Assembly: GCA_944324705.1 (NCBI GenBank)
Contig: CALUXI010000014.1
Coordinates: 1-40,391 of the forward strand
Length of the DNA: 40,391 nt
Reading direction: 5' to 3'
Source of the DNA: an uncultured Acholeplasmatales bacterium
GTDB taxonomy: Bacteria; Bacillota_I; Bacilli_A; Acholeplasmatales; Anaeroplasmataceae
Translations under genes and position numbers: made by a program
Shown: in pieces, positions 50 to 7,064 of the stretch
How positions within the stretch are numbered: the stretch's first letter is position 1
Layout of the letters: each line of letters starts with the position of its first letter
Notes under the pieces: generated by a model
What the model was told of the DNA's origin: nothing
What the model saw: the letters and a program-made list of their open reading frames with translations, nothing else
Databases searched by the model: none

Positions 50-679
50 CTATCTTGACATATTACCAGTATGCTTTCGTACACCAATTTCTATATCAAA
101 AGTTTTATTATTTAAAACAGTTGTCATATTAATACAATTTGTAAAATCAATAACTAACTTCACATCTTTTCTATCATTACCATTAAGAATGTAATTTAAA
201 TAATTATTATCAAATATACTTTCTTGAGCTAAAGGCATAGTTGCCGTAAATTTATTATTAGAACGAGATACATTAAAATAACTTGTTTTACTTGCAAAAC
301 TTAAATAAATTTGAGGTAAAAGAGTGTTATTTATAGTATTAAAATTATTAGTAATATCAAACTCTAAATAATATCTACTATAGCCAAGACTATTAGCTTT
401 TAGCATTCCTTCAAAATTCATTGACATAGTCAACTCAATTTTAGCTTCATCTGTTATTATATAATTAGTCTCACTATCATAAGTAAAACCTTTAGATTTT
501 TCTTTTGTTACTTCAGTAAAATTAAGGTCTGATAGAGATGAAGTTGATGTATTTATAGAAACAGGACTCGTTTCTATTGTTATACTAGAGTCACCATCTA
601 GAAGAAAACTAGCATAACTGATTGATATTATTGAAATTAAACAAACAAAAAATGTTAATATTACGCCAAATTTCTTCAT
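50..679 (-). CDS. Secreted TasA/camelysin-like protein (second copy)
   Basis: This 209-residue secreted protein is the last gene of the operon. Its N-terminus is a signal peptide: two lysines, a hydrophobic stretch to about residue 20, then Y-A-S-F near residue 22-25. That resembles the T-F-A-A-F site of the TasA-like protein at 5410-6027, so both may be cut by the SipW-type peptidase encoded between them. The remainder is beta-rich, with many Ser/Thr/Asn and no Cys apart from one near residue 183, and I see no catalytic motif. An AGAAAGGAG ribosome binding site supports the ATG at 679, 17 bases after the lipoprotein gene. A role as a minor fibre or coat subunit is inferred from the signal peptide and neighbours. 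Sequence similarity to TasA is weak by eye. Confidence 0.6.
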   Translation of the reverse strand: MKKFGVILTFFVCLISIISISYASFLLDGDSSITIETSPVSINTSTSSLSDLNFTEVTKEKSKGFTYDSETNYIITDEAKIELTMSMNFEGMLKANSLGYSRYYLEFDITNNFNTINNTLLPQIYLSFASKTSYFNVSRSNNKFTATMPLAQESIFDNNYLNYILNGNDRKDVKLVIDFTNCINMTTVLNNKTFDIEIGVRKHTGNMSR

Positions 680-696
680 TTTGACTCCTTTCTAAA

Positions 697-1755
697 TTAT
701 TCTATTACCTCTTCAAAACATGCATACAAAACTAGATTTGTCATAACTGGTGTCAAATCCGTAAACTTCTCGGCATTCGGATTTGTATTAGCATTAGGAT
801 CTGTGTACCAACCTACAAATTTATAACCTTCTTTATAAGCAATTGGAATACTTCCTAAACTAATATAGTCACCTTTAGTACATTCAATAATGGAATTGCC
901 AGAGATTATATTACCACCATTCTCTACCGCATTAAATGTAGCTGTACAAGCCTCACCAGTAATTCCTAAATCCGCTACTAACTCCCATTTCATTTGTGTA
1001 CTAATATAACGATAAAATCTAAAATTGGCTGTGTCAAAATAATAATCACCATTTTTGGCCCCCGTAATCATATTAGGAGCTCCTGCACCACTATACCAAG
1101 CTGTTGATTGTGGTTTTTGAAAAATAAACGTCTCAGTTGTTTCTTCTTCATCATCATAGGTAACATGTAAAATATATTCTGTATTATTTTCTTCAGCTAC
1201 AATACTTGCTATACCTTTACCAGGTTCGCCTTTTTCACCTTTAGGAATTATTATTTCTTTTTTAGTACCATTTGTTAATACTATTTCAATAACAACATTA
1301 CCTGTATTACCATCTGTAGTACTTGTTACTTCACTAATACCAACCGGATCTTTGATTACAAATTCATAATCTTCTTTATTTGTACTGATTGTTATTGTAG
1401 TTTCTCTTGTTTTTTCATCATATGTTGAAGAAATATTAGTTATTTCTTCTTTATCAATAGGTATTTCTTTAACTGTATTATCTGTAAATGTTATGACCAA
1501 GATACCATCTTTTTCTTCAATACTTGTAATACCTACCCCATTTAAACCATCATTACCTTGTTCACCTTTAGGTATAGTAAATGTAACATCATCACTACCA
1601 TCAGTGAAAGTAATTGTAACTGTAGTGTCTCCATTGCTATTTAAATTAGTAGTAATCGTATCAATTAACTTCCCATCATCACCACCAACAAAAGCACTAC
1701 ATGATGTTAAGAATAAAATAATTGGTAATATGATAATTAAAATAATTTTTTTCAC
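697..1755 (-). CDS. Collagen-like lipoprotein with InlB-type repeat
   Basis: This is a predicted membrane-anchored surface protein of 352 residues. The lipobox L-T-S-C places the lipidated cysteine at about residue 19. After it come beta-rich repeats of about 100 residues, each with a short collagen-like Gly-X-Y piece (PKGEQGNDG near residue 61 and PKGEKGEPG near 175). The C-terminal 80 residues (F-x-x-x-G-G ... Y-x-F-x-G-W-Y-x-D) look like a Listeria-Bacteroides/InlB B-repeat. I take the GTG at 1755 as the start, because AGGTGG lies 8 bases upstream inside the last codons of the preceding gene. Longer in-frame GTG starts at 1767 and 1764 would lose that spacing. The stop of the preceding gene is one base away, so translation is coupled. 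Confidence 0.72.
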   Translation of the reverse strand: MKKIILIIILPIILFLTSCSAFVGGDDGKLIDTITTNLNSNGDTTVTITFTDGSDDVTFTIPKGEQGNDGLNGVGITSIEEKDGILVITFTDNTVKEIPIDKEEITNISSTYDEKTRETTITISTNKEDYEFVIKDPVGISEVTSTTDGNTGNVVIEIVLTNGTKKEIIIPKGEKGEPGKGIASIVAEENNTEYILHVTYDDEEETTETFIFQKPQSTAWYSGAGAPNMITGAKNGDYYFDTANFRFYRYISTQMKWELVADLGITGEACTATFNAVENGGNIISGNSIIECTKGDYISLGSIPIAYKEGYKFVGWYTDPNANTNPNAEKFTDLTPVMTNLVLYACFEEVIE

Positions 1756-1756
1756 T

Positions 1757-2818
1757 TTATTCACCACCTAAAGGTAAAGCTAATAAATTATATAGCCATA
1801 AATAATTTTTATTATTAATTTTAATTTTGTTAAATTTAAGCCCACAGTTAGAACAACTATCTTCTTCTAAAATATTAGAACAATAAGGACAGTTATCCCC
1901 ATCTTCTTCTACTAAATAAATTAATGTTTTAAAGATATCATTATATGATTTGATATTTATTAAAGGAACATTAGTAATAATATCCCCTGTAATATTTAAT
2001 AAAGGTAAAAAAGTGTTAGCTATATTTAATTTATAATTATGATTAATATTATTATTCTCTATGTTTAAATTAATTGTTTTGTTTATTATTTTAATATCAA
2101 TAATAAAACTATTATTTTTAAGTTTAATTTCATTTTTATTATTATTTATAACATCATTATTACTTAATAAATCGTTAATAAATAATTCTTTAAATTTAAT
2201 AAAATAATCTTCTTTATTTAAATAAAATTTATAACAATAATTATAATCTTTATCACTAATAAATATATTAGTTAGTAAGATTTCATTAAATACTTCATCT
2301 TTAATATTTTTGTAATAATTACTATTTTTTATTTGATTGAATAAAATATTAATATCAGCTATCTTTCTAATATTATTATTGATATATTTAAGATCTAAAC
2401 TTTTCAAAGTATTTAAATTATTAAAATTACCAAAATAGGAAAAATCTAACTTACCTTTTAAAGCATTACTAATATTAATATTTCTATATATACCTTCTAA
2501 AATATTTAAATTAATTAATATTTGTTTAATTAAATATTTAATAAACCTATTTTCATAAGTATCTAAATTATCTATTAAATCATAACTATATATTTTAGCT
2601 AATTTTATTTTTCCATTATCGCTAATATACAATTTGGGATCTTTTAGAGTTCTTTTTAATAAATTAACATCATATTTATATTTTTCATCTATTCTAACAA
2701 TCTTTTCTTCCTCTTTTAAAGCAAATACATATTTATTTATAATATTTATTATATGATTAACTACTTCATTAATATTATCTAATAATTCATCTAAATTTAT
2801 TAATTCATAACTTTTCAT
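1757..2818 (-). CDS. McrC/DUF2357-like protein with C-terminal zinc ribbon
   Basis: This 353-residue, Asn/Ile/Lys-rich protein carries D-T-Y-E-N-R-F-I-K-Y at residues 86-95. That resembles the signature of McrC-type (DUF2357) partners of McrB-like AAA+ ATPases, and the gene directly follows such an ATPase. A possible remnant of the PD-(D/E)xK nuclease core is I-I-D-I-K at 239-243, but I cannot find a convincing upstream acidic partner, so nuclease activity is doubtful. Four cysteines (C310, C313, C322, C325) in a CPYC...CSNC pattern form a zinc ribbon. There is no signal peptide or membrane segment. The ATG at 2818 has no clear ribosome binding site and lies four bases after the ATPase TGA stop, which suggests translational coupling. 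The family call is from motif and context only. Confidence 0.55.
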   Translation of the reverse strand: MKSYELINLDELLDNINEVVNHIINIINKYVFALKEEEKIVRIDEKYKYDVNLLKRTLKDPKLYISDNGKIKLAKIYSYDLIDNLDTYENRFIKYLIKQILINLNILEGIYRNINISNALKGKLDFSYFGNFNNLNTLKSLDLKYINNNIRKIADINILFNQIKNSNYYKNIKDEVFNEILLTNIFISDKDYNYCYKFYLNKEDYFIKFKELFINDLLSNNDVINNNKNEIKLKNNSFIIDIKIINKTINLNIENNNINHNYKLNIANTFLPLLNITGDIITNVPLINIKSYNDIFKTLIYLVEEDGDNCPYCSNILEEDSCSNCGLKFNKIKINNKNYLWLYNLLALPLGGE

Positions 2819-2822
2819 ATCA

Positions 2823-4580
2823 TCACATTAATCTATTTAAATATTTATCAATTAAGGAAATAGTATCATTTAATTTATAACTAAAATCATTTAATAAATA
2901 TTTCTTAAATTTAGTTAAAGATTGTTTTAAAGAAGATTCAAAATGACCTTCTAATTTTCTTAAAATCTTATTTTTAAACATAAAATCAATAGCTTCATCA
3001 ATAGTTCCGCCACAAGATCTATAAACTGGTATAAATATTTCAAGTTGTTTAATAATACGATTACCTATTACAATATCAAACAAATCATTAATTTGTTTCA
3101 ATAAATTCGTTATATTTTTTAAATCATTTTCTTTTAGTATATAGTCATTATTATTTAAGGCATTAATATATAATTCCTTTAAACCTTGATAAGTTAAAAT
3201 AATTGGATCTACTTCTTTATTAAAGTCTAATTTATCCTCATGTTCATTAAAATTAATAACTATAGCTCTATCAATAACTTTATCTGTTAAAGTATAAGTT
3301 GAGTCATCTTTATTACATGTTCCTATAAAATAATTATTAGGAGTAATAGTTAATAAACCATCTTTTAAATTACTAGGAGCATCATAACCATCCGGTATTT
3401 CCATTATTCTAATATATCTTTCATCTTCAGGGTATTCTAAAACTGATAAGAAGTCAGCAAAATAATACTCAACTCTACTAATATTCATTTCATCTAAAAC
3501 TAAAAAGTTTAAATGATTAGGGTAAATAGATGCTTTATATAATGATTTTAAGAAATCTGTTTCCATATAAGTATTAGTAAATTCATTATAATAACCTAAT
3601 AAATTAGATTTGTCTCTATAAGTTGCCTGAATAGCCTCGAAATAAGCATCTTCACCAATAAATTTCGCAAAATATCTTGGTAATGAAGATTTACCAGTAC
3701 CAGATATACCTTCTAAAATAATTAAATTAGAGGCAGCAAGACCAGCAATGAAAGCTCTTAAATTAGCTATATCATAATATAAACTACAGGTATTAGCTAA
3801 ATATATTTGTAAATTAGAACATATTTTTTTTAAAGATAAGCTTGTAGAGTCTAAATTTAAATTACCACTATTTAAATAAGCTTTATCAATTTTAGTTAAG
3901 CCTTTAAATAATTCTTCTTTTTCTTTTAAGTTATTACCAACACTTACAGTAGAAACCACATTTGAACTTGTTGATAGAACTTTATCATTTTCTGTAGTAT
4001 TAAAGGTTGTAGCTAAACTTTGTTCCATTTTAGGTTCTGCAATACTATTATTTTCTGTAATATTAAATAATGGTTTATGATAATTTTTAATATTTATAAA
4101 TAAACCAACCACTACAAAACAAATTAAGCCCAAAAATACAGTTATCAATAGACCAAATAAAATAGATTCAAAAACAAAAGCTAATGATAAACCATAAATA
4201 TCAAAATTATCCGGAATATAAAATAAAGAAGATACTCCAAACGATAATACTAAACATATTAATAATATGACTCCATAAGTAAATAAATATTTTGTACTAT
4301 AAGGAGATTCTTCTTTAGATCTAGCATATGAATCTACAAAACAAACACTAAAGACAAAAATAATTAACCAAATGACAAAAAAAGTCAACATTACCCACAT
4401 TTGACTAACAGGTTTGATTTCATTAAAACCTATAGCCTTAGCTAATAAAGCTATTGGATTTTTTTCTTTAAACATTATATAATTAGCATCTATAGATAAT
4501 GCAGAAAATAGTGTCATAAAGCCAAATATTAATGTAATACACAATATAATAATTTTATTTCTCGAAATTTTTAGTTTCAT
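2823..4580 (-). CDS. Membrane-anchored McrB-like AAA+ ATPase
   Basis: The N-terminal 165 residues of this 585-residue protein contain four hydrophobic segments (about 8-30, 60-80, 98-120, 133-163). A Ser/Thr/Asn linker leads to an AAA+ domain in the cytoplasm. Walker A is G-I-S-G-T-G-K-S-S at 291-299. Y-R-D-K-S-N-L-L-G-Y-Y at 321-331 matches the McrB-type 'LLGYYN' signature. Walker B is L-V-L-D-E-M-N at 360-366, followed by R-V-E-Y-Y-F. Sensor 1 (G-T-C-N) and an arginine-finger region follow near 420-440. McrB ATPases form hexamers that work with a McrC-like partner, here the next gene. A transmembrane McrB is unusual. The ATG overlaps the sipW stop (ATGA), with AGGTGAG upstream. Its function in surface protein assembly is inferred from context. 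Confidence 0.8.
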   Translation of the reverse strand: MKLKISRNKIIILCITLIFGFMTLFSALSIDANYIMFKEKNPIALLAKAIGFNEIKPVSQMWVMLTFFVIWLIIFVFSVCFVDSYARSKEESPYSTKYLFTYGVILLICLVLSFGVSSLFYIPDNFDIYGLSLAFVFESILFGLLITVFLGLICFVVVGLFINIKNYHKPLFNITENNSIAEPKMEQSLATTFNTTENDKVLSTSSNVVSTVSVGNNLKEKEELFKGLTKIDKAYLNSGNLNLDSTSLSLKKICSNLQIYLANTCSLYYDIANLRAFIAGLAASNLIILEGISGTGKSSLPRYFAKFIGEDAYFEAIQATYRDKSNLLGYYNEFTNTYMETDFLKSLYKASIYPNHLNFLVLDEMNISRVEYYFADFLSVLEYPEDERYIRIMEIPDGYDAPSNLKDGLLTITPNNYFIGTCNKDDSTYTLTDKVIDRAIVINFNEHEDKLDFNKEVDPIILTYQGLKELYINALNNNDYILKENDLKNITNLLKQINDLFDIVIGNRIIKQLEIFIPVYRSCGGTIDEAIDFMFKNKILRKLEGHFESSLKQSLTKFKKYLLNDFSYKLNDTISLIDKYLNRLM

Positions 4581-5407
4581 AACTCACCTGTTTTAAACTT
4601 ACCTGAATCTATAATTTTATTATTTTTATATAGACTAAAAGTATTATTATTTATTTCTAACTTATAAATAGAATTACTTAATAATAATTCATTCTTATAA
4701 ACTTCTTTAAATCTTTTTAATCTTATTTTTTTAACTTTACTATCATATATAGAATAAATAATTAATAATATATAAATAAAGACTACTGCCGATATACCAT
4801 AACTAGATTGTAAATAAAAAACTATATAACCTAAATATGGTATTCTAACATTATTATATACGCCTATAATATCATTGCTATTAACAAACTCATCACTAAT
4901 ATTATTAGCATCTCCTCTAGTAATATAACCATTATCTTTAATCTCTATAACTCTATGAATTATTAATTTATTATCTTTTTTATAACAAACAACATCATAT
5001 AAATTAATTTCTTGATTAGTTTTTATAACAATTAAATCATATTTATTAAATTGATTATTTATATTTTCTAAATAAATATTTTCTTCATTCTTATAAGACA
5101 TTGAATTACTAGCTACTACTAATATTTGATAAGGCATATTATAGGTATTAGATATCTTAGATATTAAACTAAAGATAAATATAATAAAAAGGGCTATAAA
5201 TACAATATCTATAGTCCCCTTACCAATCAATGATATAACTTTAAATAAAGTATTTTTTTCTTTATTATGAGATATATAATCATAAATTATATCAATATCT
5301 AACTCACCTAAATTTATGTCTTTAATTATTTTCTTATAACTATAAATTAAATAAATTGCAAATAATAATATTATTAGAACTAGTATTATAATTAATACTA
5401 TTAACAT
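4577..5407 (-). CDS. sipW: ER-type (SipW-like) signal peptidase I
   Basis: This membrane serine protease cuts signal peptides from exported proteins. It belongs to the S26B (SipW/ER) branch: the catalytic serine is in S-N-S-M (Ser102), and the general base is a histidine in I-I-H-R-V (His151) instead of the lysine of ordinary LepB/SipS enzymes. The R-G-D-A-N-N-x-x-D box lies at 164-172. Hydrophobic segments are at about 3-23, 65-84 and 190-220. SipW enzymes in Bacillus process TasA and TapA, and here TasA-like proteins sit on both sides in one operon. The ATG lies two bases after the preceding stop and lacks a good ribosome binding site, so it is probably translated by coupling. The C-terminal cytoplasmic tail of about 55 residues is longer than usual. 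Confidence 0.88.
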   Translation of the reverse strand: MLIVLIIILVLIILLFAIYLIYSYKKIIKDINLGELDIDIIYDYISHNKEKNTLFKVISLIGKGTIDIVFIALFIIFIFSLISKISNTYNMPYQILVVASNSMSYKNEENIYLENINNQFNKYDLIVIKTNQEINLYDVVCYKKDNKLIIHRVIEIKDNGYITRGDANNISDEFVNSNDIIGVYNNVRIPYLGYIVFYLQSSYGISAVVFIYILLIIYSIYDSKVKKIRLKRFKEVYKNELLLSNSIYKLEINNNTFSLYKNNKIIDSGKFKTGEL

Positions 5408-5409
5408 AA

Positions 5410-6027
5410 TTATTCAGCTGGATTAACAACTACATTAACCTTAAATTTATAACCATCAATGGTTGTCTTCCATTGTCTTAGAATATCAAGCTTTTTTTGA
5501 GGATTAGTGTATTCAGTATTAGAAGCACTATCTAACCAATATGAAGGGTTTACTTCTGAACCATCTACATTAAATCTATCATTCCAAGCAAATGTTAAAT
5601 CTTTAGTAATAGTATAAACTCCTCCTGAAGCTGTTCCAGCATTAGCCTTATTAACTGTAATTTCTTCTGGTAATTTAATTAATTCATCAGTATCTTCACC
5701 AACTAGGGCAGTTGTAATAACTACACTTGACCATCCTTCACCAGTTATTTTAATTTCCACTGTAGCTGTATAATCACCATCATAATTAGAAACTGTTACA
5801 TCGCCTTCAGTATCACCTTCAGCAGCATCAAATTTAATCTTAGCATCTGTTAAACTAGCTTCTACTTTAACTATATTTGAAGTTACATCCCCCATAGTAA
5901 TGCTTCCACCATCTACTTCATCTTTCATACCATCTTTATTACCAACGATAAAAGCAGCAAAAGTTGTACTTATAATAGCTACTAATCCAAACATTACAAG
6001 TCCACCTAATAAAAATTTTCTCTTCAT
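5410..6027 (-). CDS. TasA/camelysin-like secreted protein
   Basis: This 205-residue exported protein is encoded first in the operon, directly after the G9 promoter. Residues 1-25 form a signal peptide ending T-T-F-A-A-F, the SipW-type site seen in TasA/camelysin proteins. The mature part has no cysteine and is rich in beta strands, Thr, Val and Asp. It has a Ser/Gly-rich 'D-G-G-S-I-T-M-G-D' stretch near 40, as expected of a fibre-forming or camelysin-like protein. Known relatives form amyloid-like or donor-strand fibres in biofilm matrices. The start is backed by AGAAAGGAG 10-12 bases upstream of the ATG. As the first and best-placed gene it is likely the major subunit. Assignment to the TasA family comes from the signal peptide, size and sipW linkage, not from a database search. 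Confidence 0.72.
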   Translation of the reverse strand: MKRKFLLGGLVMFGLVAIISTTFAAFIVGNKDGMKDEVDGGSITMGDVTSNIVKVEASLTDAKIKFDAAEGDTEGDVTVSNYDGDYTATVEIKITGEGWSSVVITTALVGEDTDELIKLPEEITVNKANAGTASGGVYTITKDLTFAWNDRFNVDGSEVNPSYWLDSASNTEYTNPQKKLDILRQWKTTIDGYKFKVNVVVNPAE

Positions 6028-6073
6028 AAGTTTAAATACTCCTTTCTAGAAAACTATATGAAAATGCTTTCTC

Positions 6074-6109
6074 AATTGTAATTATAACCCCCCCCCATAG
6101 ATTTGTCAA
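6074..6109 (-). promoter_or_regulatory. Sigma-A promoter with G9 tract in the spacer
   Basis: On the minus strand a perfect -35 TTGACA (6109-6104) and a perfect -10 TATAAT (6086-6081) are separated by exactly 17 bases. Nine of those spacer bases are an uninterrupted run of G (6096-6088). In an otherwise AT-rich window such a run is out of character. Slipped-strand mispairing in it would change the spacer to 16 or 18 bp and so alter promoter strength. The promoter drives the six genes at 50-6027. Confidence 0.85.
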
Positions 6110-6120
6110 CTTTTTTAATT

Positions 6121-6158
6121 AGTGTGTGTTATGTGTGTAGTGCTATCTGTAGTGCACC
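6121..6158 (-). repeat. Direct repeats just upstream of the G9 promoter
   Basis: TGTAGTGC occurs twice on the plus strand (6136-6143 and 6148-6155), 12 bp apart. Next to it TGTGTGT also occurs twice (6123-6129 and 6132-6138). All lie within 15-50 bp upstream of the -35 box. The spacing is close to one helical turn, so this could be a site for a dimeric activator or repressor. No regulator is identified. Confidence 0.45.
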
Positions 6159-6184
6159 TCAGATTAATTAAAGATATTGTATTA

Positions 6185-6334
6185 TTATTTAATTATAGAT
6201 GAATATTCATAACTAATATGGATTATTTCATATATCATTACGCTTAAATACGGCCTAATATAGCCATAATTATTAATAATCAATTGCACGTTGACATTCC
6301 CAACATTTTCTAGATTAGTAGTAATTTTATACAA
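6185..6334 (-). pseudogene. Short open frame, possible TasA-like gene fragment
   Basis: A 49-codon frame runs from a TTG at 6334 to a TAA at 6185 in the intergenic gap. It has no ribosome binding site and no ATG start. Its product contains E-N-V-G-N-V-N-V-Q-L-I-I-N-N, which is like the 'N-x-G-N-V-x-V' strand seen in camelysin/TasA-type proteins. It may be the remains of another fibre gene that lost its 5' end. It may equally be a chance frame. Confidence 0.25.
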
Positions 6335-6358
6335 AAAAATACCTAGTTTCCTAGGTAT
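6333..6358 (-). terminator. Rho-independent terminator after the phosphatase gene
   Basis: Read on the minus strand, ATACCTAG (6358-6351) and CTAGGTAT (6346-6339) form an 8-bp perfect stem around a 4-base loop, followed by a run of seven Ts. The stop codon of the gene at 6351 lies inside the stem. This ends the natAB-phosphatase operon. Nothing else clear is seen between here and 6158 apart from the short frame listed. Confidence 0.85.
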
Positions 6359-7064
6359 CTTCTAATACTATACAATTAACTTTTTTACTAAAAATTGTAC
6401 AGGCATCTAAACCAATAAATCCTTTAGTTATGAAAGGACTATAGTTAGCTTTAGGTCCGAACTCACTATATTTATCGGGGTTAAAATAGGCATGAAAAGC
6501 TGAGACATGCCAGTGGCCTGACACTATGGTTTTATTAGGTTCAAAGACTTTCCTTAAATAATAGTCTAAGGGGTTTACCCATCTTGATCTAAGTCTACTA
6601 CTATAACTTGTATTACGCCAATTATTGTCATATGTTCCGTCTATTTCAGTAGGTATCCAAGAATGGGTAAAGATATATTTACTAGTTTCGTAATAATCTT
6701 GATATAAATCTAAGACAGCCATTAAGCCTGATTCTTTAGCTACTTCTTTCATGCGTTTAGTTTCATCATAACCAAGTTTAACTAATGTATCAAAAGTTTT
6801 ATTATGTAAGTCTGAATTACTAGGGTAACCTCTTAAAATCATATCGTGCATTAAGTCTTCGTGATTACCTTCAATTAAGATAATTTTATCTTGATTCTTT
6901 AAAACAAAATCTATTATTTCTTTGGGTTCTTCTCCTCTATCAAATAAGTCCCCACAAATTATTATTTTATGTTCTTTATTATTAATATCAAAGTTATTTT
7001 CTTTTAAAGCTTCTTGCCAATAAGTATAATAGCCATGAATATCTGAACTAACAAAATATTTCAT
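6351..7064 (-). CDS. Metallophosphoesterase (PPP/Ap4A-hydrolase type)
   Basis: This 237-residue cytoplasmic phosphatase is of the calcineurin-like fold. All metal-binding motifs are present: D-I-H-G at 8-11, G-D-L-F-D-R-G at 38-44, G-N-H-E-D at 66-70 and G-H-W-H near 198. The order and the G-D-x-x-D-R-G form match the PPP family, including bacterial serine/threonine protein phosphatases and diadenosine tetraphosphatases. The substrate cannot be told from sequence. The gene starts one base after the stop of the ABC permease and has no evident ribosome binding site, so it is likely translated by coupling as the last gene of the operon. Confidence 0.82.
   Translation of the reverse strand: MKYFVSSDIHGYYTYWQEALKENNFDINNKEHKIIICGDLFDRGEEPKEIIDFVLKNQDKIILIEGNHEDLMHDMILRGYPSNSDLHNKTFDTLVKLGYDETKRMKEVAKESGLMAVLDLYQDYYETSKYIFTHSWIPTEIDGTYDNNWRNTSYSSRLRSRWVNPLDYYLRKVFEPNKTIVSGHWHVSAFHAYFNPDKYSEFGPKANYSPFITKGFIGLDACTIFSKKVNCIVLEDT

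Follow-up and report, generated by a model that had tools for sequence, protein, structure and literature searches.

The promoter on the minus strand at 6109-6081 of the window (the whole stretch of 40,391 nucleotides analysed here) carries a run of nine Gs between its -35 and -10 hexamers, and porA-like control through slippage in this run is probably its best explanation. Across one bacterial family, promoters of this anatomy recur non-randomly before genes encoding exported proteins, and the run changes in length between species at orthologous promoters. In the mechanism proposed, a sigma-A promoter would hold a contingency tract in its spacer, in which replication slippage would add or remove Gs; the number of Gs would set the distance between the hexamers (17 bp for G9, 16 for G8, and 18 for G10), and the changed distance would raise or lower transcription of a six-gene operon for exported proteins and a SipW-type signal peptidase. 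We infer that such slippage occurs within the population, is reversible, and affects expression; the change in expression would then be heritable and reversible, that is, phase variation of the porA type.

Promoter architecture and the predicted operon downstream

Read directly from the sequence, the minus strand at 6109-6081 is TTGACA-AATCTATGGGGGGGGGT-TATAAT, with the following features:

6104..6109, minus strand: -35 hexamer TTGACA, 6/6 consensus
6087-6103, minus strand: 17-bp spacer AATCTAT-G9-T, between the -35 and -10 hexamers
6088..6096, minus strand: G9 homopolymer (C9 on the plus strand) inside the spacer, with non-G on either side
6081..6086, minus strand: -10 hexamer TATAAT, 6/6 consensus
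6028..6080, minus strand: 5' leader with the RBS AGAAAGGAG before the ATG, partly common to a second promoter copy (G000:C1)

An earlier sequence-only reading had claimed perfect sigma-A hexamers around a G9 run and a 17-bp spacer in the sampled copy, and both claims were confirmed, with the run at 6096-6088. The homopolymer thus stands between recognisable hexamers, as in a porA-type promoter, in a layout of 7 nt, G9, and T. It is the longest G/C homopolymer of the window, the runner-up having 5 nt, and the promoter is the single 12/12 match within 5400-6700. The distance from the promoter to the ATG of the operon, which the good RBS AGAAAGGAG precedes, is 53 bp. That 17 bp is the strongest state also for a spacer with poly-G is an assumption.

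Downstream, six genes on the same strand extend from 6027 down to 50 with small gaps or overlaps:

5410..6027, minus strand: predicted exported protein, 205 aa, leading the operon; SipW-type signal region (MKRKFLLGGLVMFGLVAIISTTFAAF); syntenic orthologs in G002 and G003
4577..5407, minus strand: signal peptidase I of SipW/archaeal type, 276 aa; TIGR02228, E 2e-18, above cut-off
2823..4580, minus strand: membrane-anchored AAA-type ATPase, 585 aa; weak AAA matches, 64-65% identity to syntenic orthologs
1757..2818, minus strand: DUF2357-domain protein, 353 aa, with a zinc-ribbon-like end; PF09823, E 1e-8; syntenic in G002 and G003
697..1767, minus strand: lipoprotein-like protein, 356 aa, with a Listeria-Bacteroides repeat; PF09479/TIGR02543; syntenic in G002 and G003
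50..679, minus strand: predicted exported protein, 209 aa, last operon gene visible before the contig end; syntenic in G002 and G003

Because of this gene spacing and the conserved synteny, the six genes would form one transcript. The peptidase also matched the SipW model (E 4e-14), under that model's cut-off. The 205-aa protein shows 45-51% identity to its syntenic orthologs in G002 and G003, and received no confident name from Pfam or NCBIfam. Its structure model is beta-rich and of low confidence (pLDDT 59), a PDB search with it gave no match at E 0.001, and for these reasons an identity as TasA is not claimed; relatives sought in viral contigs were not found. The operon had been described beforehand as one for surface proteins, a description that holds as a prediction of surface type given the SipW-type peptidase and the exported proteins, and the predicted location of these products agrees with what is expected downstream of a porA-type promoter.

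Recurrence of poly-G promoters in the genome and the family

The genome is AT-rich, with a GC content of 19-35% in the window. Taking the same promoter pattern reversed as a control, TTGACA-N-G5+-N-TATAAT had 4 matches in the genome of the window vs 0 for the reversed pattern, and its G6+ form identified 33 promoters in 14 of the 160 genomes of the order, again vs 0 control matches; all 14 genomes belong to the family of the window. The expectation that such a run would not arise by chance in an AT-rich genome was therefore borne out by these counts. The whole genome (1.64 Mb) has just 6 separate G-runs with at least 8 Gs, 4 adjoining a -10 box and 2 in coding sequence. Among the 33 promoters the runs were G6 (n=1), G8 (n=10), G9 (n=12), G10 (n=6), and G11 (n=4), and the non-G stretch before the run was exactly 9 nt in 23/33, the run there ranging from 8 to 11. 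Their spacers span 14-20 bp, vs a peak at 16-17 in the ordinary promoters of the family. In three genomes of the genus and part of one Anaeroplasma, the longest spacer G-run in the perfect promoters listed was bimodal, being either 0-5 or 8-11, with none of 6-7.

The genes behind these promoters form a distinct set. A hydrophobic, signal-like N-terminus was predicted for 35/47 first genes (~75%) vs 27/132 background ORFs (~20%; p = 6e-11), and a lipobox, by a simple rule, for 11/47 vs 6/132 (p = 5e-4), contrasts that are approximate since the background includes some spurious ORFs. The first genes include SipW-type operons, prepilin-like proteins, and repeat lipoproteins, and also a glycosyltransferase-like gene and a sugar-nucleotide enzyme. 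One might instead regard the G-run as neutral, or as an accident of assembly or composition in an already strong promoter, given that the window comes from a single assembly and that some sequencing methods tend to misread homopolymers. We consider this highly improbable, as the pattern is found in many independent assemblies with zero reversed-control matches, G-runs are very rare in the genomes concerned, and the association with exported-protein genes is strong. Hypermutation through the loss of mismatch repair was ruled out, MutS being present in this genome and in nearly all of the family; the slippage reading thus has no hypermutator background to draw on, which weighs against it.

Other sequence elements were observed at promoters of the family. 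Sequences like TGAAAGCGCTTGACA overlap the -35 box at three loci (L007, L011, and L018) and likewise precede the tract-free promoter of G002 (L252); they resemble a CcpA cre site, from which catabolite control of SipW-type operons would follow. Promoters of the form TTGACAGTGCCAA...TATAAT recur in several genomes of the family (G000:C3:87578, G000:C16:8060, G000:C43:4317, and relatives), which suggests a shared regulator. Interrupted G-rich spacers also occur, namely GGGGGAGGG, of 18 bp, before a repeat lipoprotein gene (G000:C16:20667-20696) and GGGAGGGG, of 17 bp (G041:C51:1394-1422). These may represent the switch in a locked form; such interrupted runs could not slip readily, a point against the slippage reading.

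A 35-bp core identical to that of the window, G9 included, precedes an IclR-family regulator gene at G000:C1:76996-77024. The two copies are unlinked and their partial similarity continues to the start codon, which suggests that a promoter module was duplicated. Both loci also have the same non-G part of the spacer, AATCTAT, a degree of conservation that slippage alone would not require and that counts against it. An identical core at two loci would also suit an ordinary regulon, in which the G-run is the operator of a CsoR/RcnR/FrmR (DUF156)-type repressor overlapping the spacer. Known operators of this repressor family likewise hold G-tracts near or in promoters, with TATA-like flanking arms, a mild AAANTATAY preference is seen in the non-G part of the spacers, and DUF156 genes are present in 44/55 genomes of the family, including that of the window. 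However, the operators of the DUF156 genes of the family themselves are short, of another form (ACCC...GGGG or G4-6, e.g., TATACCCYATRGGGGTATA), and located at other genes, and the DUF156 promoter in the genome of the window has CCCCC/GGGGG in a different arrangement. Poly-G promoters are present in G004 (95% complete) and G005 (91%), two slightly incomplete assemblies that lack DUF156, whereas most genomes of genus g2 have DUF156 and no poly-G promoter. In addition, the run varies from G6 to G11, an orthologous operon has no tract, and in other phyla poly-G promoters share the G-run but not its flanks. The operator reading was rejected on the differing form of the operator and the missing gene in G004 and G005, and we regard it as very unlikely.

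Long G-runs were also found outside promoters. One, a G10 run in the genome of the window (G000:C1:2019-2028), lies at the WAGGKRQ motif of a gene encoding a Dam-like adenine methyltransferase; the genes of five relatives have no run there. The gene with the run reads in several frames, appears to be disrupted by more than one frameshift, and is probably a decayed copy and not a clean on/off gene.

Tract length among relatives and in other taxa

Tract length was compared among relatives using one genome per species. The operon of the window is gene-for-gene syntenic in G003, where the promoter is TTGACA-N9-G8-TATAAT, and in G002, where perfect hexamers flank an 18-bp spacer with no G-run. At the promoter of this operon, the three syntenic species thus have G9, G8, and no tract, with diverged flanks. 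In the near twins G006 and G007, the promoter of another SipW-type operon has G8 vs G6, with spacers of 18 vs 16 bp; their alignment of 3,009 columns differs by 33 substitutions and four gaps, the two Gs accounting for one gap, and the flanks adjoining the run are identical. Across five species, the spacers at the promoter of this other SipW-type operon are 18, 15, 17, 18, and 16 bp, and a pair of Bacilli relatives at ~85% identity has G8 and G9. These differences at the same promoter are as anticipated for a porA-type promoter, and the sequence-only reading, which proposed counting the run in relatives and would have been contradicted by nine Gs in all of them, passed this comparison. Next to the changed run, the leader of G006 also carries a 36-bp tandem duplication relative to G007, repeating the RBS and the start of the first gene of the SipW-type operon.

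The tracts are not always different. Orthologs in G042 and G044 have equal lengths at three loci with 2.5-10% divergence, as do those in G044 and G047 at one locus with 17% divergence; free drift would have produced more differences, which argues against the slippage reading. Between species, then, lengths do change, though less freely than in a random walk, pointing either to modest slippage or to selection for a preferred length. Equal orthologous tracts may also be read as a fixed structural element of the spacer, or as the site of an unknown lineage-specific regulator, that tunes the strength of exported-protein promoters, with slippage incidental. The spacer core kept at two loci is consistent with this, as are the interrupted versions that keep the spacing (GGGGGAGGG, GGGAGGGG, and the G7TG vs G9 paralogs in G016), and because of the latter such a role is less easily excluded than a DUF156 operator. 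We still judge it unlikely, as changes in length fall mostly within the run and leave the remaining spacer constant, one ortholog has G8 vs G6 in G006 and G007, and the tract is wholly lost in G002.

Runs of differing length were also observed directly before a HAD-family phosphatase gene (G002:C23:14184, G006:C7:21445, and G007:C1:135552). They comprise 9, 8, and 8 Gs, respectively, in DNA otherwise ~99% identical, and no obvious ATG, GTG, or TTG is present from the run to the presumed catalytic motif.

Beyond the family, a scan of species genomes with TTGACA-N5-10-G8-N0-3-TATAAT found at least 118 stretches spread over many phyla, with Clostridia, Helicobacter, Streptobacillus, Saccharibacteria, and Ca. 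Ancillula among the taxa; a scan of this size should yield some of these stretches by chance. Among the matches listed from these taxa, 71/101 first genes had a hydrophobic N-terminus by a loose rule. A 17-bp spacer was found in 5/107 poly-G promoters (91 genomes) among the matches listed, when ~16 were expected assuming that run length and flank length are independent, and 0/5000 shuffles were as low; counting one promoter per genome among the same matches, there were ~4 vs ~14 expected. In contrast, the commonest spacer of the ordinary perfect promoters in these stretches is 17 bp (13/22 among the matches listed). This avoidance was found post hoc and was not planned, and the family of the window does not have the gap seen in the other taxa. 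It suggests either that most sampled copies have a spacing other than the optimal one or that this optimum is moved by poly-G. Rather more doubtfully, poly-G spacer promoters might have arisen convergently as a widespread switch for the surface genes of gut and other bacteria, normally one or two slips off the optimal 17 bp, with most cells weak and rare slips fully on; the same 35-bp core in the genome of the window would also drive the IclR-type regulator, so the surface operon and this regulator may share the switch design.

Comparison with known phase-variable promoters

Phase variation through homopolymers in promoter spacers is textbook knowledge for a few pathogens. The recurrence of this design at dozens of genes for exported proteins and lipoproteins in Anaeroplasmataceae, a mostly uncultured family, and its presence in many other phyla suggest that commensals commonly switch their surface stochastically, and that a simple sequence pattern may be enough to read such switching from assemblies. 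The avoidance of 17 bp in other taxa offers a testable prediction of the state in most cells. A literature search on Anaeroplasma and phase variation found no link beyond passing mentions, and the poly-G promoter switch proposed for Anaeroplasmataceae is well supported by comparison, its function being putative.

In the porA promoter of Neisseria meningitidis, the poly-G tract lies between the -10 and -35 elements, and surface PorA is ~2-fold lower with 10G and ~13-fold lower with 9G than with 11G (PMC3639595). The porA-like design claimed for the window promoter is supported by its poly-G within the spacer between perfect hexamers: in both, the number of Gs would set the spacer and a gene for a surface protein, here a predicted one, follows, and porA and the promoter family of the window have tract lengths of about 9-11 in common. 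Unlike porA, the window promoter has both hexamers perfect, belongs to an Anaeroplasmataceae lineage, and precedes a six-gene SipW-type operon. A further likeness is with opc of N. meningitidis, which has a poly-C in its promoter (cited in PMC5084427); organism and gene are unrelated, and the likeness covers a G/C homopolymer in a surface-protein promoter.

Within Mollicutes, a poly-A in the promoter region of vlp and a dinucleotide change in the promoter spacer of vmm switch surface proteins of mycoplasmas (PMC10502178). As in vlp of Mycoplasma hyorhinis and vmm of M. mycoides, whose tracts slip and control surface lipoproteins, the window promoter has a repeat tract; it differs in being poly-G and not poly-A or a dinucleotide repeat, and no homology is claimed. 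By anatomy and comparison, the window promoter would work like those of porA, vlp, and vmm.
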